Shown here one piece after another: positions 3,983-63,924 of a DNA stretch of 64,000 bases. The position numbers and the translations under genes are program-made. The first letter of the stretch is position 1. Each line of letters starts with the position of its first letter. Origin of the DNA: Candidatus Altimarinota bacterium. Its GTDB lineage: Bacteria > Patescibacteriota > Gracilibacteria > BD1-5 > UBA6164. Location of the stretch: assembly GCA_013350285.1 (NCBI GenBank), contig JAAXWG010000001.1, positions 1 through 64,000 of the forward strand, given 5' to 3'. The notes beneath the pieces were generated by a model. It saw only the letters and a program-made list of their open reading frames with translations. It was not told the DNA's origin and searched no databases.

Positions 3983-5848
3983 TTATACAACTAAATTCAA
4001 AACACTTTTTTTTAGTATTTCAAAACCATCTTTTGACATTATAGATTCTGGATGAAATTGCATAGAAACTTGGTTTTTAGCTTGTCTGTACATCATTCTC
4101 TCTCACTCAACAACATCATAATTATTTTCCTCTCCATTATCTATAGGAGAAAATGAATTATAATATCAAACAACTTTCTTCTCTCAAAATAAATCTATCT
4201 CTTTTTGGACTCACTGAGTAATCGTTTCTTGTCTTTCTACTGACATTCCATTATGTTTACAAATTGCTTGATGCCCAAGACAAATTCAAAGCATTTTTTG
4301 ACCTTGATCTTGAAAATATTTTGTTAATTCCAAAAGTTTTAGCATTTTTGGATCATTTACATCATTTATATCTCATGGTCAAGGACCTAAAACAACGATA
4401 GTATCATCAGAAATATAATCTTTGTTAAATTTTTCATTTTCTATTACTTCTACTTCACCGCCCATTCTTGTTATCATATATTTGAGCATAAAAACAAAAT
4501 CATCATCATTATTGATTATCACAAACTTTTTGCCTTTTATCTCTTCTACTTCTAGATTTTCATCTTGAGACTTTGTATAAAAATCAGAAAGTTTATTTTT
4601 TCTCTCTTCAAGTAAATCTTGTATTACCTGTTTTTCATCTGGAGTCAGCTTTTCAAGATATGATTCAAATGTTTTTTGATTTTCTAAAATTCATAAAAAT
4701 CATTTTGCTTTATTCTCTGTTTCTGCTGTTTCTCACTTAGGAGTAGAATCACTTACAACTCATGCTCCTGCTCTCACACTCAAGTTTACATTTTCTGAAT
4801 CAAGATTATTCAAAACCGCCATTCTGATAGCAATACAAGTATCCATAGTGTCTTCATCTAAATATCAAAAAGCTCATCCATAATAGCCTCTAGAAGACTC
4901 TTCCATATTTTTAATAATTTCAAAAGCTTTTTTAAGTGGTCAACCAACAAGAGTTGGAGAATAAAGAGTAAACCTCAATATATCTATAAGCGACATACCT
5001 TTTATCCTCTCTCATATAAAATGATTTTCTGTATGGATTACTGCTCCTATTTCTCTCAATAGAGGTCATTTTATTTCTCATCAATTCGTGATTTTCATAA
5101 GCATTTTTAGCTCTTCATCACTTACCATAGCCAGCTCATTTTCTTCTTTTGGGTTTTTAAGAAATTCTATGAGTCTGTCAAAAAATGATTCTTCTTCTCA
5201 TTGTTTCTCAAAATTCTTTTTTGCCATAGTTCCTGCTATGGGTCTTTTTTCTACTGTGTTTTCTGTAACTTTGAGATGCATTTCTGGTGATGCTCCAGTA
5301 TAAACCTGCTCTCAAGTATTAAACATAAAAGTCATATATGAACCATCAATACCAAGCAATCTTTTATAGAGAGTAAGAAGCATTGTGGGAGAGAAGTTTT
5401 GGAGAACTGTCTGAAATTCTCTTGAAATAATACACTGACAAATATTTCCTCCCTTTATTTCTTCAAGGACTTTTTCTACCATTTTTCAAAAATCTTCAGC
5501 TGAAATATTTGGCTTTATCTCACCATACTGTATTGTCTCATCTGGAAGAAGAGAAAGCATTTTTTCTTTTGTTATTTGAACATCTTCTTCTATTTCAAGA
5601 GCTAAAATCGGCTCATCGCCATGTGCTACACCTTGCCCTTCTTTTTCAGCAAGAGAAAAAGGAGTGAGAAAAAATATTTTTCCTTTTACCTCATCTTGTA
5701 GCTTTTGAAGTGCTTCTAAATCTGCTAATTTGTGAATTGTTCCTGTTGCATAAGATATAATTCATTCTTGTTCTACAAGGACAAAAGGATTTTCTGTCCC
5801 TAAATTTTCAAAAGAAATATCTTCTTTTATTAATCAATGTTTTGTCAT
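3983..5848 (-). CDS. trpEG: Fused chorismate-utilising synthase and glutamine amidotransferase (TrpE-TrpG / PhzE-like)
   Basis: A 621-residue fusion. Residues 1 to about 430 are a chorismate-binding synthase (CQCIISREFQ, YTGASPEMHL, KRPIAGTMAK, GAGVVSDSTPKGE). The last ~190 residues are a class I glutamine amidotransferase with LGPGPGD, catalytic Cys in GICLGHQ and His/Glu in QFHPES. The Ala in PIAGT is what anthranilate synthases have, where aminodeoxychorismate synthases carry Lys. The stretch DEELKMLMKI...GPLLREIG...HTEN resembles PhzE-type synthases (aminodeoxyisochorismate) more than textbook TrpE. The upstream Trp-rich leader and trpR make anthranilate for tryptophan the likeliest product. 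trpR, leader and this gene are collinear, with a terminator in between. Confidence 0.88.
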
Positions 5849-5865
5849 ATTTTCAATTTTTAGTA

Positions 5866-5896
5866 ATAAAAAACACTTAAGGTCATCTTAAGTGTT
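5866..5896 (-). terminator. trp attenuator terminator
   Basis: Read on the minus strand: AACACTTAAG, ATGAC loop, CTTAAGTGTT and a T run. It lies between the Trp leader peptide and the trpEG start. The minus-strand CCAACAC at its upstream edge (plus 5892-5898) can pair instead with GTGTTGG in the leader peptide's last Trp codons (plus 5931-5937), giving the antiterminator. Confidence 0.85.
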
Positions 5897-5927
5897 GGAA
5901 AAATGCTTCTCTTAAAAAAGCTCGTCT

Positions 5928-5981
5928 TTACCAACACCAGCCCCAAAGTCCCCAAGAAATGTTTTTTATAAATCCATTCAT
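5928..5981 (-). CDS. trpL: Tryptophan leader peptide (attenuator)
   Basis: A 17-residue frame MNGFIKNISWGLWGWCW followed by TAA, with four Trp codons in the last eight. It begins 10 bp after trpR and ends 79 bp before trpEG. The last Trp codon belongs to GTGTTGG, which is complementary to CCAACAC in the terminator stem. A ribosome reaching the stop would hide this segment and let the terminator form; a ribosome stalled at the first Trp codon would leave it free to block the terminator. That is the logic of classical trp attenuation, in a shortened layout. The glycines here are GGA and GGC, not TGA. Confidence 0.85.
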   Translation of the reverse strand: MNGFIKNISWGLWGWCW

Positions 5982-5991
5982 AATCAAATTT

Positions 5992-6255
5992 TTATAAATA
6001 TTTTGTTATTGCCTTTCAATCATATTTAAAAATCCTACTTCCTCTTGTAACTGTTGTAATAGATATACCAAGCTCCAAAGCTATTTTTCTCTGAGAAATT
6101 CAAGCTTTCAACATCTCCAAAATACGAATTCGCTCAGCAATATCATGTATTTCAGCAGGAGTCAGAATATCTGCAAGACTTGCTTCAAAATCAACTTTAT
6201 CTTTTATCTGTAAAAATACTTTACTTATTTTTTCAATAGAATTATTTTCTTGCAT
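5992..6255 (-). CDS. trpR: Trp repressor family protein TrpR
   Basis: An 87-residue DNA-binding protein. TPAEIHDIAERIRILEML and GISQRKIALELGIS form the helical core and helix-turn-helix, and ITTVTRGSRIF matches the ATITRGSN recognition region of TrpR. It lies directly upstream of the Trp leader and trpEG on the same strand, and a palindrome overlaps its own promoter, so autoregulation and control of the locus are likely. A second family member of exactly the same length is at 62374. The length is somewhat below that of the E. coli protein, mostly at the N-terminus. Confidence 0.85.
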
Positions 6256-6262
6256 ATATTAG

Positions 6263-6314
6263 TGTATTAATACAGTAATATTAAAAAGTGTATTAATTTT
6301 CATTTTTTTGTCAA
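6263..6314 (-). promoter_or_regulatory. Promoter and probable TrpR operator of the trpR-trpL-trpEG locus
   Basis: On the minus strand TTGACA (plus 6309-6314), 16 bp, then TACACT. TGTATTAAT overlaps the -10 (plus 6289-6297), and a perfect palindrome TGTATTAATACA lies just downstream (plus 6263-6274). Two copies of the same half site across the start region are what a dimeric repressor would bind. Confidence 0.6.
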
Positions 6315-6388: not shown

Positions 6389-7552
6389 ATGAAAATAGAT
6401 AAAAATAAACTCACAATAATAATTATAGGTTTTTTAGATGTACTGAGCATAGGTATATTTATACCAACTCTTCCTGATTTGATAACATATTATTGAGTTT
6501 CGGCTCATATGATATCATATTCTATAGTTGCTTATGGACTTTTTTCTTTTTTATCTGGTCCTTTTTTATGACAATTATCTGATAGGTATGGTAGAAAAAA
6601 AATTCTTCTTCTTTGTGTTTTATGAAGTTTTATTTCTTCATTTTTTATGAGTATTACTTCTGTATTTTGGGCATTTTTACTCGGAAGAATAATTAATGGA
6701 ATCACTGGTGGAAATATAAGTATTGTTCAATCAATGCTTTCAGATATTTCAAAAACAAAAGAAGAAAGACTTCAAAATATGGGAATACTTGGATGACTTT
6801 TTTGAGCTTGATTTATTATCTGACCAATCATTGGTTCTCTTTTGCTTCCCTTTTGAGTAAAAGCTCCTTTTTGGTTTATGACTCTTTTTTCTTTGATAGA
6901 AGTTTTTATGCTTCTCTTATTTTTAAGAGAAACAAATGAAAATATGGTTCAAAAAAAGATAAAAGTAAATCCTTTTTGAAGTATTGTAAAATATTTAAAA
7001 AACAATGAAGTAAAAATATTTTTAATATCGTTTTTTACTCTTATCTCAAGCTTTTCTCTTTATCAAGGAATGTTGCCTGTTTTCCTTTCAAAACAATATA
7101 ATCTTCCATGACATACAAGTGGGTATGTTATGAGTGGTATAGGTCTAATTATTGCCATAAATCAAGCTATTCTCCTCAAAAAATTTTGGCTCAAATATTT
7201 TTCACTCAAAAAACTTTTTTATATTAGCAATATTTGAATATTTATTATTTTTATACTCCTTTCTATCATAAAACCTCTTTGGCTTTTTCTTATTGTATTT
7301 TTTCTTCTCATATTTTTTCAAGGAATCATAAATCCTATTTATCAGTGAGAAATAGTAGAGAATACTCATCTTCATGATAGAGGCGAAATAATGTGAGTTT
7401 TGAGCTCTCTACAGTCTATGAGTATGTTTATTTGACCTCTTATTTGAGGTTTTTGTATTGATAAATGAATTTCCATATTTTTATTAGGTTCTGTTATTGT
7501 ATTTATAAATATTCTCATTCTTTCTTGACTTATAAAAAAGATTAAAAACTAA
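6389..7552 (+). CDS. MFS efflux transporter (DHA1/Tet-like)
   Basis: A 387-residue membrane protein with about twelve hydrophobic segments. Between segments 2 and 3 it carries GQLSDRYGRKK, the signature of the major facilitator superfamily; the first Gly of the motif is TGA. GFIIGPIIGSLLLPF in segment 5 resembles the antiporter motif C of drug-efflux members. It is divergent from trpR with 133 bp between them, so the TrpR operator might also affect it. An exporter next to a tryptophan locus could carry an aromatic compound, but the substrate cannot be told from sequence. Confidence 0.85.
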
Positions 7553-55945: not shown

Positions 55946-57508
55946 CTAAAATTCATCATTTTCTAAATGATAATTATAATATAACAAATTCAATATTTCA
56001 ATAAAACTTTTATTCTTATTTTTATGCTCTTTTATTTCATCTTCAGCTACAAAATCAATTACTATTCCTGATCAAACTTGATTATAAAGTATATTTCATT
56101 TTTTAATAATAGTTCTAATTATTACAGCAAAATCAGCATTTCCATTAAATCAAAAATATCCTATTGCTCAACTATAAATACCTCTATTGGTTATTTCATA
56201 TTTACTTATAAGTTTCATTGCCTTGATTTTTGGAGCTCATGTAACATTTCAGTGTGGAAAAATTCAAGAAAATATATCAAAATAATCTTTTCATTTAGCT
56301 ATTTTTCAAACTACATTAGATACTATATGTATTAGATGATTATATTTTTTAATATACATTTTTTTTGTAACTTTAATACTTCATGGTTCACAATTTTTTG
56401 ATAAATCATTTCTAATTAAATCTATTAACATTGTATGTTCAGCTTTTTCTTTTGGATTATTTTGTAATTCATGCTTTAGCCTTTTAAAGTCTTGCAGAGT
56501 TTTTCAAACTCACCTTGTTCAAGCAAGTGGCCTTGTTAGAACTTTACTTCAATTTATTCTTACAAAAGTCTCAGGAACTGATCATATAAGTTCAAAATCC
56601 TTAAAATTAAAATAAAACATATAACTTGCAGGATTTATATGCCTTAATCACTTATAAACATCTATTCAAGATATATTTTTTGATTTTGAAATATTTCATA
56701 AATCAAAAGAATAAGTTTCACTTATAACTGTTTGAAATACATCACCATCTGTTAAATCCCTTTTTAGTTCATTTAAAATATTTCTATATTGTGTATCAGA
56801 TAAATTTGATTTTATATTCATCTCTACATTTTTTTTATTTCAAGATAATATTAAAGGGGTATTTTTAGAATGTTTTGATATTATTTTTAAAATATTTCTG
56901 ATATTAATTTCTACTTTTTTTCTTTTACTTTCAAATTCTATTTGATTTATATTGTCATTCAAAAATATATTTGATATTATTTGAATTTTTCATTGTTTAA
57001 AATTATCAAAAATTACAAAATCTTTATATAATCAGAAAAATCAATATGGATAATTTTGATCTATATTTTTATGTTTAGATATTTTATAAAGAGACTCAAT
57101 ATTGTCATATCACATATATCAAATAAGCCCACTTGTCAAGGGGGGTAAATTATCGTTTTTAATAGATTTAAATTTTTTAGTTTCTTCTTTTAAAATATCA
57201 AATGGATTTTTATAAATTATTTTTTCTTCTTTATCAAACTTATAATCTTTAACTAAACAAGTTTTTTCATCTTGAAATAAAAAAGTTTTTCTTGGATTAA
57301 ATCATATAATAGTATATCTAGATGTATTAGATGCACTATCTAAACTTTCAAATAAAAATGGATAATTCACATTTTCTGAAATAAGATTTTCTAAACAATT
57401 TATAGGAGTTCATATTCAAGAAGAAATTTCAGTATAAACAGGCAAAAAATTTCACTTTTTTTTATATTTTTTTATATTTTGTATTTCTGGTAATAATTCT
57501 ATATTCAT
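55946..57508 (-). CDS. trpE: Anthranilate synthase component I
   Basis: A 520-residue chorismate-binding enzyme. N-terminal FESLDSASNTSRYTIIGFNP is the Trp-feedback region; the catalytic part has FQTVISETYSFDL, TRPLAGTRG, EHTMLIDLIRNDLSK, HGNVTGAPKIKAMKLI and NRGIYSGAIGYFG. Ala in PLAGT supports anthranilate rather than aminodeoxychorismate (which needs Lys here). It is a second, unfused copy of the function found in trpEG at 3983, and is more like classical TrpE. trpG is 6 bp upstream. It is the last gene of the operon; the repeat begins 17 bp after the stop. Confidence 0.9.
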
Positions 57509-57514
57509 ACCATT

Positions 57515-58111
57515 TTAGTTAAATAAAAAATTTTTTAATATCTTTAATCAATCAGGAGTTCCTATACTTTCTGGATGAAATTGAACTCCCCAAATATCAT
57601 ATTTTTTATGTTTTATTCACATAATTATATTATTTGTTTTTGCGATTATTTCAAGATTATTTGGTAAAGATATATTTTCTCAAATTTGAGAATGGTATCT
57701 CATTATTTTTATATTATCTTTTAATCACTTAAATATAATACTTTCATTATTTATAATTGCAAAATCTTCTTTTCAGTGCATTATTTCATTAGCAACGATT
57801 ACATTTCATCAAAAATATTTATAAATCAATTGATGTCATAAACATATTCAAAGTATTTTTATTTTATCTTTAAAATAATCAAGTAACTCCTCAGATATTC
57901 AAATATCTTCTTTTCTATATACAGTTCATTGTCATGGTCAAAAAATAATATGAGTAGGATTTGTCTGAATTATTTCTTTAAGAGTTTTTTCATTGTTTTT
58001 TATTACTAAAATATCATTAATAGAAATTTTATGTTTTTTAAAAATAATACATATAAAATTATATATATTATAAGTGAAAGAATCATAATTATCAATTATT
58101 ATTACTTTCAT
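57515..58111 (-). CDS. trpG: Anthranilate synthase component II (glutamine amidotransferase)
   Basis: A 198-residue class I amidotransferase. IIDNYDSFTYNIYNFI begins it; FGPGQGTVYRKEDIG is the oxyanion region; GICLGHQLIYKYFGG holds the catalytic Cys, and VQFHPESIGTPDG the His and Glu. Nearly all these Gly are TGA. It supplies ammonia to TrpE, whose gene follows after 6 bp. The start overlaps the end of the exporter gene by 23 bp. Confidence 0.92.
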
Positions 58112-58955
58112 ATTTTTTATTTAAAAAAGTATAAATAAACAAAGTAACTAAAATTAAAAACATTCAAATATAATTATAAGTATTTAAAATTAAATCAAAT
58201 AAAAATATTGAAAATATGATAGTAATTATGGGGGTTATATAATCAAAAAAGATTATTTTATTTCATAATTTTTTTATTGATTTAGCCCAAAGTATTGGAG
58301 CTATAAAAGTTGGAATTAATCATAATATGAATAATATAAAATATTGAAATAGGGTTATATCTTTAATTACTTCTAAATTAATATTTCATAATCCAATCAA
58401 TAATAAAAAAACTAAAAGAGATGAAAACAGATTTCATAGTGAAAATACTTCATTTTCATTTTTTATTTTTGATGAAAAAATCATCAAAAAAGCCCAAGCT
58501 ATTGAACTACAGAGCGGAATTATGATATATAAAAAATTTATAGTTATTCAGTTATCTGTATAACTAAGTAAACTTACTCATAAAATAAGTAATATTCATA
58601 TAAAATAATTGTATTTTTTAAATTCTTTTTTATACAAAATTGAATAAATAATATTTTGAAAAAAAGGAGAATTTTTGATTATTAAAGTTGCTAATATGAT
58701 ATTTCAAAAAATTATTCAGTAAAAATTTCCTAAATAATGAATTATTGTTAAAAATGAAATTATAAGAATATTTAATAAAAATATCTTACTTTTTAGTAAT
58801 GAAAAAATATTTTTGTTAAATATTCAAGGAAGTCATGCAAAAAACAATATAAATACAAAAAGTATTAGTATGTCAATGTCTCAAAGAAAATATTTCAATA
58901 ATATTGGAGCAAGTCACCAAGATAGTATTGAGAAAATTGGGTATAGGTATAACAT
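58089..58955 (-). CDS. EamA-like permease of the trp operon
   Basis: A 288-residue protein with nine or ten membrane segments in two halves (APILLKYFLGDIDILILFVF; SIAWAFLMIFSSKIKNENEV; FFDYITPIITIIFSIFLFDL). The second half matches the EamA pattern: an early GLIPTFIAPILWAKSIK and a late PIITIIFS. Gly is coded almost only by TGA. It overlaps trpG and lies 1 bp from the phosphatase-like gene, so it belongs to the operon and probably exports the product or an aromatic amino acid. Confidence 0.75.
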
Positions 58956-58956
58956 C

Positions 58957-59445
58957 TTATAATAATGATTTAACAATTAGTTTTATTTCATCTCTTATAA
59001 TTCTTGATTTTTCAATTCATTCTCAAGCTGGATCATCAACAACTTTTATTTGAATTTTATCACTATAGTTTTTCAATAAAAACTTAGTTGGATTTTCTCA
59101 TTTTACCCTAAATTCTGAATCTTGTTCTAAATTTAGCCACAATAATAATATTATCCTATCAGCTTCATCGCAAATTTCTTTTGTTAATAACTTTATCTCT
59201 TGAAAAGATATATCTATTCCATCTTCTCTCATAATATCTTGTATCATTGATGAAGGTTTTCATCAGTATTCTCTTATTCTTTTGTTTATTATCATGGATT
59301 CATTATCTATTTCTGGTAATAGATTAATTCTATCCTCTATTAAAGCAACACTAGTTCAATCTCGTGAATTAGTAAAATGGTTATAATATCACTCTGCCAT
59401 TTGACTCCTTCATACATTAGCTGAACAGATAAAAAGTGTTTTCAT
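58957..59445 (-). CDS. ArsC/low-molecular-weight phosphatase-like protein
   Basis: A 162-residue protein. LFICSANVGRSQMAEGYYNH is the Cys-x5-Arg-Ser loop (Cys7 nucleophile), GIDISFQEIKLL and EADRIILLLWL follow, and VVDDPAGEGIEKSRIIRDEI holds the Asp-Pro general acid. The order fits thioredoxin-type arsenate reductases as well as LMW tyrosine phosphatases. The extra Cys pair used by ArsC for thiol relay is not evident, so a phosphatase on a small molecule or protein is possible. Its place inside a biosynthetic operon, 1 bp from each neighbour, is unusual. Confidence 0.75.
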
Positions 59446-59446
59446 A

Positions 59447-60334
59447 TTATTTTAATTTTCTAAATAAAAATCAAGCTCAGTCTCATTTTTTTGGATTTTT
59501 TGCAATTATTCATAAATATATATCAGTTCATAAATTATGTTTCAATTCATTATATTCATCAATAGCAAATATTTCATTTTCTCATATTTTAGTAAAATTT
59601 ATAAAATCACTAATAAATTTAAAATTATCAGTTTTAACTTTTATTTCTTCTATAAATTCAAAAATTTTTATATTGTCATGTTTTTTATCTATTCTTCAAT
59701 TTATAAATCAATAATATACTAAAAAATTTAAGATATTTATAACTCAATTTTTAAATCAAATATCATCAACATGGTTTCAGCATTCTATTCAATAAGCTTC
59801 TTTTCATTTTCTTATAAATTCTCAAATAATAGATCATGTATTTCATATTTCATCAATTAAAATAGTTTCTACATCAAAGAATTTTTCTGCTTTATCTTTA
59901 TATTTTGTATCACTAATTCATATTAAGTCATTTCATTTTGATACACTATGGATATCTATTACAAAATCAATTTCATCAAATATTTGTTTTAATTCATAAA
60001 ATCTTTTATGCTCATAACTTCAATTTTTAAATTTTTTATTTGATACACGATTCATATTATCATCTATAAACCTAAACTTATTTTTATCTTCAGATTTTGA
60101 ATATTTTATATATGCCTCAATATTATTTGCAATTAAATAAATTTTTCATCATTTTAATTTTTCATTTATTTTAAATTCATTAACTAGATATTCAAATATC
60201 TTTAATCATACTGGTTCATTTCAATGAGTAATTGCAATAAGTCATATATTTTCCCCAGGTTTTCAAGAATCAATTATAGTAATTCAAGAAATATTTTTGT
60301 GAGTGTTTTTAACAAAATTATACATATTTTTCAT
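59447..60334 (-). CDS. Aspartoacylase/succinylglutamate desuccinylase-like zinc hydrolase
   Basis: A 295-residue hydrolase. AITHGNEPVGLKIFEYL gives zinc-binding His and Glu, DDNMNRVSN the substrate-binding Asn-Arg, FVIDIHSVSKG the third zinc ligand, and AYGIECGNH the catalytic Glu. These motifs in this order are those of AstE/aspartoacylase, which split N-acyl amino acids. The start overlaps the GNAT gene by 17 bp. A GNAT and a deacylase in one operon suggest that an N-acylated intermediate is made and removed. Confidence 0.8.
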
Positions 60335-61034
60335 TTTTGTAGTAAGCTACTAATAAAGAGTCTCAATTTTCATAATTAAATCAAGGATAAAAATTTTCAT
60401 CAACAAATCTTACATTTTGTTTATTTCACATAGGTCATCAATATACTCATTTAAATAATCCTTTTTCTAAACATTTTTTTCATCAATCTAAATTAGTAAA
60501 GAAATAATTTAACTCTTCTTCAATCATTCAATTATTTAGTAAAAAATCATAAGCATCTTCTCAAAGTAAAACTGTAAATCATTGTTTTTTTAAAGAATTT
60601 ATTATATTTTGATTTTGAGTTCTTAGAAAATATTTTCAATCATTTCATATTTTTTCTCAAAGTATTTTATATAATCATTTTCATTGTTGTTCTTTACTTA
60701 TAGAAGTTCAAAATCTATATACAAATCAATTAATAATTATAATAGATGAAAATCAAATTATTATTCAATTATTTTTTATTATGTATATGTGAGTACTTTT
60801 AAATATATGAGATTTTATATCATTATCTCAAACTTTTACTCCAAATCCTGACCTAATAACATTAATAACTTCTTGCATTTCATATTCAGGAAAATCACTA
60901 GGATTATAAACTTCTATAGTAATATTATTTTGTTCTACTAAATTTTTAACAGCATCAGATATTCAAGGTGATTGTTGAGAATATTCTTTTTTTATTCAAA
61001 ATCATAATGAATTTCACAAAGTATTTAAAGACAT
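60318..61034 (-). CDS. GNAT acetyltransferase-like protein
   Basis: A 238-residue protein. IIIGFSSIIIINGFVYRF is strand 4, then GTSISKEQQGKGLYKILGEK supplies the acyl-CoA loop (Gln-x-x-Gly-x-Gly type), and NIINSLKKQGFTVLLGED matches the end of the fold. The first ~65 residues and the C-terminal 60 (GPMGNKQNVRFVDENFYP) are extra and may bind the acceptor. The operon setting suggests an amino group of an aromatic compound as acceptor; this is inference. Confidence 0.72.
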
Positions 61035-61084
61035 AAATTTAAAAATTAACATTTAAAATATTTTATTAATCTTTTCATGATTAA

Positions 61085-62242
61085 CTACTTACTTAAAACA
61101 AATACTAAATAATGTCATAAATAAGGTTTATGCTTACAATGAGCTTTTTCATAATCAATAGCTTGATTTACTCTATCTTCATTGTCAAAAAATATGGGTG
61201 GCATCATAGAGGTAATAAATGAATGACTATAAGTTCAATCAACTTTTAATTCAGTTCAATTTAATTCAGCTAAGATATCATCATAACCTCTTGCCTTTGC
61301 ATAAACTTTAAATACTTTATGAGTTCAATCTCTCTTAATTATTGGTATTTCTATAAAATCATTTTCTGTATTTATAACAGTTTCCATAGAAGATTGCCAT
61401 GGTTGCCACCATTTATCCATTAAAGATTCACTATTATAAAATGATAAAAATGCTTTTCATCATTTTTTTAATATCCTATTTACTTCATTAATAATACCAT
61501 CATTTATTTCACTAGCAGATCAGAAATTTGCAACAACTAAATCAATTGAATTGTTTTTTTCTGGAATTCATTCAACTAAATCAGATTCTATGTATCAAAT
61601 ATTATATCATCAATTTAATTTTTTAGCTTCTCTAATCATATCTGGAGAAACATCATATCAATTTACTTTAAAAAATCATTCTGAAGATAAAAATCTTGTA
61701 ATATCTCAATTTGCACATCATAAATCTATAGCTACTCATTTATTTTCAGGTAGGTTTTCTTTTAATAAACCTAATTCCATACTTCTAGCTAATTTAGTAG
61801 CATTAAATCAATCTCAATAATCACTATAATTTTCAGCAACTTCACTTGTTAAAGATAATAAATTTCTTCTAAGTTCCTCTTGTGTAATTTCTTCTTTAAC
61901 AAAAATATTCTTTCTATCTAATATTTGTCTTTGTTTTTCTTTTCAAGCAGCAGTTATTAACCAAATAAGCATTTGCATCATTCTTTCATCTTCTCAAGAA
62001 TTTTTAGCAATTTCAGAAAACTTCATTATTAAATCATATTCTCTATCAAGCTGTAAAATTGCTTCTGATTTTCTTTTTGAAGATGCAATTTGTCACATAA
62101 GTATTAATCTATCTAAAAATATAGATGCTATTTTTGAAGTCATTTCAGTAAGAAGTTCTCTTGTGAGTTCTCTTGCTTTTTTTAAATCTTCTTGATTTTC
62201 ACTATTTAGTAAAATTCAAACTTGAAACAATCTTTCATCCAT
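61085..62242 (-). CDS. Chorismate mutase (AroQ-type) fused to a SAM-dependent methyltransferase
   Basis: A 385-residue fusion. Residues 20-110 are all-helical, with Arg28, Arg45, Lys56, Arg67-Glu68 and Gln104. The spacings (17, 11, 11 and, from Glu68, 36) match Arg11, Arg28, Lys39, Arg51, Glu52 and Gln88 of E. coli chorismate mutase to within one residue. From ~165 a class I methyltransferase follows: GVAIDLGCANGDITRFL (SAM loop), GYDVSPDMIREAKKL, SIDLVVANFG and NRILKKGGKAFLSFYN. So one chain may make prephenate and transfer a methyl or, as CmoA does with prephenate, form carboxy-SAM. It is the third gene of the trpS-trpR-...-trpG-trpE operon. I know no such fusion by name. Confidence 0.78.
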
Positions 62243-62330
62243 GATTTTAAAATTAAGAATAATTTATTTATTTCCAATATTATATATAATTATAAAATCA
62301 TGAATAACAAAATAAAGTTTCTACAACAAT

Positions 62331-62356
62331 GTTATAGTAATATACTACACTGTAAC
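62331..62356 (-). promoter_or_regulatory. Dyad upstream of the chorismate mutase-methyltransferase gene
   Basis: GTTATAG...CTGTAAC arms (one mismatch) surrounding TAGTA-ATA-TACTA, 88 bp before the start of the fusion gene and directly behind trpR2. It is a candidate site for TrpR2 or an internal promoter; the core does not match the TGTATTAAT site of the first trp locus. Confidence 0.35.
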
Positions 62357-62373
62357 AGTATAAAACTCTATAA

Positions 62374-62637
62374 TTATAATAATTTATGTATAATTTTTTT
62401 TTCGTATGTATAAAGTCTACTTCATCTACTTACTGTTGTTAAAGATATTCTTAGTTTTTCAGAAATCTCTCTTTGTGTAAGTCATTTTTTTAAATACCTT
62501 AATATTTGAATTCTTGCTCAAACATCTATTATTTCATCAGGTGTAAATAAATCTTTTATCAAATCGCATAAATCCTCTTTTGTTTCTATCTTTAATATAA
62601 TTTCAGACACTAACTCTAAAGCGTTTTTTAATTCCAT
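62374..62637 (-). CDS. Second TrpR-family repressor
   Basis: An 87-residue protein, the same length as the TrpR at 5992. FTPDEIIDVGARIQILRYL, KGLTQREISEKLRIS and LTTVSRGSRLYTYEKK align with it directly (TPAEIHDIAERIRILEML, GISQRKIALELGIS, ITTVTRGSRIFKYDGK). It lies between trpS and the chorismate mutase gene. It probably senses tryptophan, or the pathway product, and controls this operon. Confidence 0.85.
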
Positions 62638-62696
62638 ATTTTTTATTTTAAAAAATATATTTAATATTAATATCAAAAGGTTATATATAAATTTTT

Positions 62697-63809
62697 TTAA
62701 CTTTTTCAATATCAAATAATTCACATTTTTTCCTTTAATTCTTGTAATAATTCTTGTCAAATTTTTCTTACATTCTCACTACCTTCTTCAATAGATGAAA
62801 TCACTAAATCCATATTATTTTTATAATATTCTCTTTTTTCTCTGATAGGAGATATCAATTCATCTAAAATTTTTACTAAAAGTTTTTTTAATTCTCAATC
62901 TCAAACACTATTTTCTCAACCTTCAATATATCTTTTTTTGAGTTCTTCAAGATGCACTTTATCACTATAAAATATATCTAAATATTTAAATACTACATGA
63001 TTTTCTATATTTCAAGGAGCTGAGACTGAAGTTTTTCATGAATCAGTATACATACTATTCACTCATTTTTTGATTTCATTTAATGTCGCTGTCAAATAAA
63101 TAGTATTTCATAGGCTTTTACTCATTTTATCATTTCCATCAGTTCCTACCAGTCTTGGAGTTTCTGAAATCAGAGCCATTGGTAAAGGAAAGCTTGTCCC
63201 GTACATAGTATTTACTTTTTTGATTATCTTTCTTGCTAATTCTATATGCGGAATTTGGTCTTCTCATACTGGAACTATTTCTCATTTTGGTAGCATAATA
63301 TCTGCAACTTGACTAACGGGATAATTGATAAATCAAAGTGAAACTGAACTATTCTCTCATTCTCATCTATTTTCAATTTTTTTCATTTCATCTTTAAGAG
63401 TTGGATTATTTGTGGCAACACTATATGGAGTAAACATAGTGAGTAAATTGAAAAGTTCAGCAAATTCTGGAACATAACTTTGAACGACGAAGTTTGATTT
63501 TTTTGGATCTAGTCATACAGATAGCCAGTCAATAACCATATTTACTACAGCACTCCTTAATCTTTCTGTATCTCATAAATGATCTCACAAAACTTGATAA
63601 TCTGCTATTAAAAAATTATTTTTAATATTTTGGGTATCTTGCATTAATAGCCAATTTTCTAGTGCTCATTTAAAGTGTCATAGATGGAGTCTCCCACTTG
63701 GTCTCATACCAGTTAAACAATTTACAACCCTATCTCAAACTTTATATTTAAAATCTTCTACTCATCTTATTACATGTGGAGTTTTATTGGATATATTTAT
63801 TTTTTTCAT
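62697..63809 (-). CDS. trpS: Tryptophanyl-tRNA synthetase
   Basis: A 370-residue class I synthetase. TGMRPSGRLHLGHFKGALEN carries the HIGH-type site (HLGH, residues 42-45), GDHLGDTERLRSAVVNMVID matches the Rossmann core, and GNDKMSKSLGNTIYL the KMSKS loop. It charges tRNA-Trp. It is the first gene of the operon, behind a strong promoter. It may be the cell's normal enzyme or a second, regulated or resistant copy protecting the cell from an indole-like product; the window cannot tell. Confidence 0.93.
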
Positions 63810-63846
63810 AGAAATATTTATTAAAAAGTAAATAATAATAATAATA

Positions 63847-63874
63847 AATATAAAATTAATTACATTTTTGTCAA
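63847..63874 (-). promoter_or_regulatory. Promoter of the trpS operon
   Basis: Minus strand TTGACA (plus 63869-63874), 16 bp, TATATT. It begins just after the right copy of the direct repeat. Confidence 0.65.
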
Positions 63875-63900
63875 ATATTTTTAAAAAAATCAATACTCAA

Positions 63901-63924
63901 CAAAAAAACCTCAAAATTTGAGGC
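63901..63924 (-). terminator. Terminator within the direct repeat (right copy)
   Basis: Minus strand CCTCAAATTTTGAGG followed by seven T; it ends the gene cut by the window edge, ahead of the trpS promoter. Confidence 0.8.

Follow-up and report, generated by a model that had tools for sequence, protein, structure and literature searches.

A single transcription unit that very probably stands under two layers of tryptophan sensing was found on the minus strand of the DNA stretch analysed here, the window (64,000 nt; positions 1-64,000 of contig JAAXWG010000001.1). This reading draws on the parts, their geometry, the compensated base pairing, the operator and the gene content. In the direction of transcription, the unit comprises a promoter, a palindrome at the start of trpR, a trpR-like gene, 10 bases, a short Trp-rich leader, a small hairpin, a terminator and a fused trpEG gene. 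All parts named in a preliminary description of the region were recovered on that strand: the trpR-like gene, a 17-residue leader, the complementary segments GTGTTGG and CCAACAC, the terminator and trpEG. Its reduced genome reading TGA as Gly was likewise borne out, as the source genome (G000; 1.28 Mb, 8 contigs, completeness 98%) fits translation table 25 and trpEG alone contains 23 in-frame TGA codons. The organism is a tiny, probably host-dependent CPR (Patescibacteria) bacterium. In the window, Rfam matched two tRNAs only, and no T-box, riboswitch or known leader.

Scanning contigs with the single TrpEG sequence gave zero matches; relatives were recovered with a TrpEG alignment as the query. 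Nine further genomes of the order carry the same fused trpEG lineage, the copy in G040 being truncated, and the same-family relatives include Candidatus Gracilibacteria bacterium STE_177 and UBA6489. No TrpEG relatives were found in the viral contigs scanned.

The promoter of the unit has a -35 box TTGACA (6309-6314, minus strand) and, 16 nt from it, a likely -10 box TACACT (6287-6292, minus strand). The same TTGACA-N16-TACACT arrangement lies upstream of the leader of G042. The predicted TrpR operator is the palindrome TGTATTA-N6-TAATATA at 6255-6274, which agrees at 13 of 14 positions with the consensus TGTATTA-N6-TAATACA taken from the trp promoters of relatives having trpR. No other match with at most one mismatch occurs in the window, where 0.025 were expected, or in the whole genome, and the operator claim of the preliminary description is thereby borne out more precisely than it was put there. 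Also in G048 and G049 the only genome-wide match lies, with one mismatch, at the trpR-trpEG promoter. In G009 and G030 a perfect palindrome lies at the promoter of trpR, and in G042 at that of the leader. Compared with the E. coli operator, with its half-site consensus GTACTAGTTAACTAGTAC, 14 of 18 positions agree in G030 and G042 vs 12 of 18 in the window.

The trpR-like gene (5992-6255, minus strand) encodes 87 amino acids and matches the Trp_repressor family PF01371 with 61.9 bits (cut-off 27). In the TrpR equivalog model of NCBIfam, TIGR01321, it scores 47.9 bits, below the cut-off of 67.25, and we therefore call the protein TrpR-like; the YerC model gives a lower score of 34.6. Measured against the E. 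coli TrpR sequence, the counterparts of the Trp-pocket residues T44, R54, T81, R84 and G85 are all kept, while a YerC-like paralogue (L001) lacks that of G85. On the model scores and the pocket residues, a YerC-type identity of the window protein was rejected. In the first layer of the proposed control, the Trp-bound TrpR-like protein would sit on the palindrome at its own promoter and turn the unit off.

The leader might be real and the TrpR-like protein still not be a trp repressor, leaving attenuation to act alone, as in Sinorhizobium meliloti, with trpR as a passenger or a YerC-like gene. The missed equivalog cut-off and the existence of YerC-type paralogues would agree with this, as would the absence of trpR from five leader-bearing genomes (G032, G041, G052, G053 and G067). 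We nevertheless consider it improbable, given the retained pocket and the presence of the operator at trpR/trpEG promoters where trpR is present, in three genomes as the single match. Moreover, trpR heads Trp operons in relatives, preceding trpC, trpD or trpB in G030, G009, G042 and G031, and in family f2 it lies directly before trpEG.

As to control by both layers, trpR and the leader, which the preliminary description presents together, do not form a fixed unit: most relatives have only one of the two. The window and G042 have both, G048 and G049 have TrpR and no leader, and the five leader-bearing genomes named above have no trpR, indicating that the two layers are modular and freely combined.

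A wider TrpR regulon was considered and rejected, as one-mismatch operator matches outside trp promoters are about as frequent in these AT-rich genomes as matches to a reversed control pattern. One perfect site occurs in G040, though that genome is without trpR. Another perfect copy lies away from the trp genes of G030 (L131, 1501-1520), about 20 bases past the 3' end of a gene of unknown function, and may be due to chance. Divergent from the window trpR, with the operator between them, is an MFS transporter gene (6389-7552); its nearest models are Tet efflux proteins, with scores far below the cut-offs. This transporter may share the TrpR control and move an aromatic compound.

The leader ORF (5928-5981, minus strand) has 17 codons, with the sequence MNGFIKNISWGLWGWCW before its stop codon and Trp at codons 10, 13, 15 and 17. 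No Shine-Dalgarno-like sequence precedes it. Among the 580 ATG frames of 10-30 codons in the window, it is the only one with four Trp codons, and not one frame with four turned up among 31,969 of the same length range drawn from 40 first-order Markov windows. The preliminary description had made its reading depend on Trp codons and pairing segments being conserved in relatives, and both are kept. In the trpEG loci of relatives, Trp-rich frames were found in G032, G041, G042, G052, G067 and, cut by a contig end, G053. Seven leaders are complete, namely those of the window, G041, G042, G052 and G067 and two of G032; these six genomes of the order belong to two families, and all the leaders precede the same trpEG lineage. 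The leader sequences are MKSIFYKIIWWTTRGWWFFI in G032 (the adjoining one, of the four-Trp type), MIKNYSNISWGKKGWWFI in G042, MKTNIFLNTWTIARIGNNRLWGFCYA in G041, MSLLKYFTSWWNLPLPHWLRFL in G052 and MFIITFLTSWWNIPLPFWRIL in G067, and the incomplete one of G053 terminates in LTSWWNIPLSFWRVF. Codon 10 is the first to specify Trp in each of the seven complete leaders. The f3 genomes share the Trp-codon stretch CACATCTTGGTGGAA without variation; between the f1 and f3 leaders, nothing in the peptide is conserved except the fixed positions of Trp codons. Every leader-bearing relative has a terminator at the same place. No leader of the same anatomy was found upstream of the second fused lineage (trpD-trpF-trpEG operons) or of the Peribacteria genes.

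A simpler explanation would be that the hairpin is only the terminator of trpR itself, that the Trp-rich frame is a chance ORF and that trpEG has its own start. The leader begins just 10 nt past the trpR stop codon, where a terminator would be natural, and AT-rich sequence forms hairpins easily. However, the Markov windows did not yield a single four-Trp frame, and in five genomes (G032, G041, G042, G052 and G067) leaders and terminators of matching geometry and pairing precede the same trpEG lineage with no trpR upstream, making a chance ORF very improbable.

The leader is better read as part of an RNA switch, and the pairing supports this. GTGTTGG lies in the last codons of the leader and its complement CCAACAC at the foot of the terminator. 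Segment 2, GGTGTTGG (5931-5938, minus strand), forms the 5' half of the predicted antiterminator and pairs with segment 3, CCAACACT (5891-5898, minus strand), which overlaps the 5' arm of the intrinsic terminator (5864-5896, minus strand; stem 5896-5872 followed by a T run). The two helices are therefore mutually exclusive. Folding of both states, a check put forward at the outset, gave -11.4 kcal/mol for the antiterminator and -10.3 kcal/mol for the terminator. The antiterminator of the window is the weakest of the set (dinucleotide-shuffle p = 0.018), which counts against the reading. The claim that the coding end of the leader doubles as segment 2 is supported. In the relatives the corresponding values were -17.4 kcal/mol in G032, -12.6 in G041, -20.7 in G052, -17.3 in G053 and -22.6 in G067 (p = 0.001 for each), and -15.4 in G042 (p = 0.004). 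All pairings were thus better than those of shuffled sequence, with p from 0.018 to 0.001 overall and at most 0.004 in each relative. Segment 2 covers leader nt 44-51 both in the window and in G042. Of its eight pairs, three differ between the two genomes by changes on both sides, and not one is broken. These compensating changes, by which the pairing is kept, were counted by leader position, since MAFFT puts segment 3 in the wrong place when aligning the f1 leaders.

The geometry is equally constant. In all leaders, segment 2 begins at leader nt 41-45, at a distance of 13-17 nt counted from the first base of codon 10 (the raw computed distances contain one unpaired flanking base in most cases). 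The front of a ribosome, as seen in toeprints, lies about 12 nt beyond the start of the A-site codon, so segment 2 would be just free during a stall at codon 10 (5952-5954, minus strand), and a ribosome at the leader stop codon would cover it. We propose that in the second layer a ribosome translates the 17-codon leader behind the RNA polymerase. With ample charged tRNA-Trp it would reach the end of the leader and cover GGTGTTGG, leaving CCAACACTTAAG free to fold as the terminator, and transcription would stop before trpEG. When Trp is short, the ribosome would stall at codon 10 with its leading edge just before segment 2; GGTGTTGG would then pair with CCAACACT, no terminator would form and trpEG would be transcribed. 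The preliminary description had missed that only codon 10 can be the sensor: a ribosome stalled at codon 13, 15 or 17 of the window leader would mask segment 2, so these three codons would be part of the structure.

The peptide contains Trp, and the sensing of free tryptophan by a TnaC-type nascent peptide is established (PMC8429421). If the leader stalled the ribosome in this manner, high Trp would raise expression. We find this hardly credible: unlike an arrest peptide, the f1 and f3 peptides are not conserved outside their Trp codons, a stall near the leader end would hide segment 2, and the gene under control is a biosynthetic one accompanied by a Trp repressor.

Attenuation by a stall at codon 10 would need only two alternative helices, as originally suggested. 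A 1:2 protector duplex was no better than shuffles in the f1 genomes (window, G032, G041 and G042) and was clearly above them in G067 only. We therefore regard the switch as a two-helix variant and not the four-segment form of E. coli. As the protector hairpin is missing, transcription should continue past a leader that is not translated, in contrast to E. coli. A small hairpin is predicted just past the leader stop codon (5905-5921, minus strand) and is compatible with both states; it recurs at the same place in G032 and G042 with differing sequence. It could possibly act as a pause hairpin, although this is a guess.

Two further arrangements were seen in relatives. G032, a genome without trpR, has a second, upstream leader MNTIILSNNWKNLFLSKKQK (L007, 2695-2818, minus strand). 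Codon 10 is the only Trp codon of this leader, which comes with a separate antiterminator (-21.2 kcal/mol, p = 0.001) and a separate terminator. As both leaders of this genome have an antiterminator and a terminator, they would constitute tandem attenuators. In G052 and G053 (L064 and L065), trpS lies directly 3' of trpEG and hence also behind the Trp leader; in these genomes tryptophanyl-tRNA synthetase is probably under the control of the attenuator too.

The fused trpEG gene (3983-5848, minus strand) encodes 621 amino acids with a chorismate-binding domain (PF00425) and a glutamine amidotransferase domain (PF00117), and the catalytic Cys is present. None of the NCBIfam anthranilate synthase equivalog cut-offs is reached (best 178.6 bits vs 645). 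The best solved structure is PhzE (3R74), with 242 bits over residues 57-617, compared to 98 bits for TrpE, and the closest non-CPR genes sit in phenazine clusters. Together with the lack of trpA, trpB, trpC and trpD, this could mean that the regulation is as described but acts on a PhzE-type ADIC synthase that serves the synthesis of a secondary metabolite. PhzE and anthranilate synthase are reported to differ at three positions, which in PhzE are Ser217, Ser368 and Thr369 (PMC5906492). The window protein has Ala, Ala and Gly there. All nine Trp-controlled fused enzymes show PIAGT and GAG at these positions, as does Sulfolobus TrpE, vs PISGT in the 15 other fused enzymes compared, and in a tree the nine form one group with a support of 100/100. 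The Trp control and the linkage to trpS also fit anthranilate, and we regard an ADIC synthase as unlikely. No phenazine cluster was found at the trpEG locus, where the neighbours are trpR, the MFS transporter gene and unrelated genes. On these residues and the supported group, we call TrpEG a probable anthranilate synthase, with active-site residues of the anthranilate type in a PhzE-type fusion. The same family also has trp operons with a second lineage of fused TrpEG (L011, L012, L013, L014, L015 and L018), in which position 217 is a PhzE-like Ser. Since its members are expected to make anthranilate for Trp, the published residue rule may not be absolute.

In calling the region a trp control, the preliminary description was right about the parts but implied a Trp pathway that is not there. 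Profile searches of the window's genome found no trpA, trpC or trpD and no trpB above the cut-off. The other genomes of the same trpEG lineage have no trpA, trpC or trpD either; the exception is G042, where a separate trp operon contains the other fused enzyme. The gene trpB was searched within the window's family only. The same gap in nine genomes makes incompleteness an unlikely cause. With the later genes missing, the cell cannot make tryptophan by itself, and the switch would govern an orphan enzyme, most likely an anthranilate synthase working without the rest of the Trp pathway in the cell. This also constitutes a point against two-layer control, whose benefit is unexplained without the later pathway. 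A chorismate synthase gene and an EPSP synthase gene adjoin a second trp cluster in G000, and no chorismate synthase was found in the other leader-bearing genomes.

Anthranilate produced when Trp is short could pass to a partner able to complete the synthesis of Trp, serve another purpose or be a remnant; the good order in which the control is kept speaks against the latter. Tentatively, and with considerable doubt, we suggest that the cell senses Trp shortage twice and makes anthranilate that it cannot use itself, passing it to a host or prey whose trpDCFBA would finish tryptophan. If true, the feedback-inhibited first step of the partner would be bypassed, and the Trp pathway would be split across two organisms, of which the dependent one would have retained the switch. 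A comparable handover is found in Cinara cedri, where anthranilate is the metabolite exchanged between Buchnera BCc and Serratia symbiotica, one of which has only trpEG left; these are, however, insect symbionts, for which no such leader or repressor is described (PMC5054487).

The combination of repressor and attenuator had been ascribed mainly to gamma-proteobacteria, which is too narrow for attenuation. In S. meliloti, as in the window, a fused trpE(G) is attenuated through a leader peptide whose first Trp is codon 10, and no other trp operon of S. meliloti is attenuated; there, however, Trp-dependent repression is absent and the rest of the Trp pathway is present (PMC7298713). The window differs also in having segment 2 inside the leader ORF and an enzyme of the PhzE-type fusion lineage. 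The E. coli trp operon likewise joins a TrpR repressor to ribosome-mediated attenuation (PMC1183508, PMC7755916), with control codons 10 and 11 (PMC1183508), but it uses four segments with a 1:2 hairpin and a segment 2 behind the stop codon, its trpR is unlinked and the full pathway is controlled. A first Trp at codon 10 in both species indicates that this position is common far beyond the present group. Actinobacteria also attenuate trp genes and trpS by leader peptides outside Proteobacteria, but with GC-rich terminators, conserved gGCC-rGCy-GGCC triples and no TrpR layer described (PMC1262725); these attenuators include that of an anthranilate synthase gene of Streptomyces venezuelae (PMC1262725 and its reference 21). 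The position of trpR inside the transcript, ahead of the leader, stood as described and has a precedent in trpRBA of Chlamydia trachomatis, also a host-dependent bacterium with a truncated Trp pathway, for which a leader in the trpR-trpB gap has been proposed (PMC7755916). Unlike the window leader, chlamydial TrpL is long with scattered Trp codons and is unvalidated according to PMC7755916, and C. trachomatis retains the last Trp enzyme whereas the window's genome retains the first.

The mechanism is of a known kind. No leader-peptide attenuation in CPR bacteria was found in the literature searched, which covered few subscription papers. Within that scope, the taxon, the two-helix layout with an in-frame segment 2, the modular pairing with TrpR, the tandem arrangement in G032 and the orphan enzyme as target appear new, and priority is not certain. 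Full transcription-translation coupled amino-acid sensing would persist in reduced, code-altered genomes. With segment 2 in frame at a fixed distance from the sensor, the layout is about the smallest for such an attenuator and gives simple predictions, and the orphan anthranilate synthase as target makes the question of cell-host exchange testable.

A second Trp-related cluster of low GC content lies at 55946-63914 of the window (minus strand). It contains trpS, a second trpR, genes for a methyltransferase, an aspartoacylase-like protein and an EamA transporter, trpG, and a canonical separate trpE, and aroC and aroA follow just past the window end. With this trpE/trpG pair and the fused trpEG, the genome would have two chorismate-aminating enzymes and no later Trp gene. 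Genes resembling aspartoacylase/succinylglutamate desuccinylase are found near trpR in three genera (window 59447-60334; L022, 2194-3135; L026, 2795-3231). Two of the three match PF24827, and the product is possibly a Trp-linked salvage enzyme.
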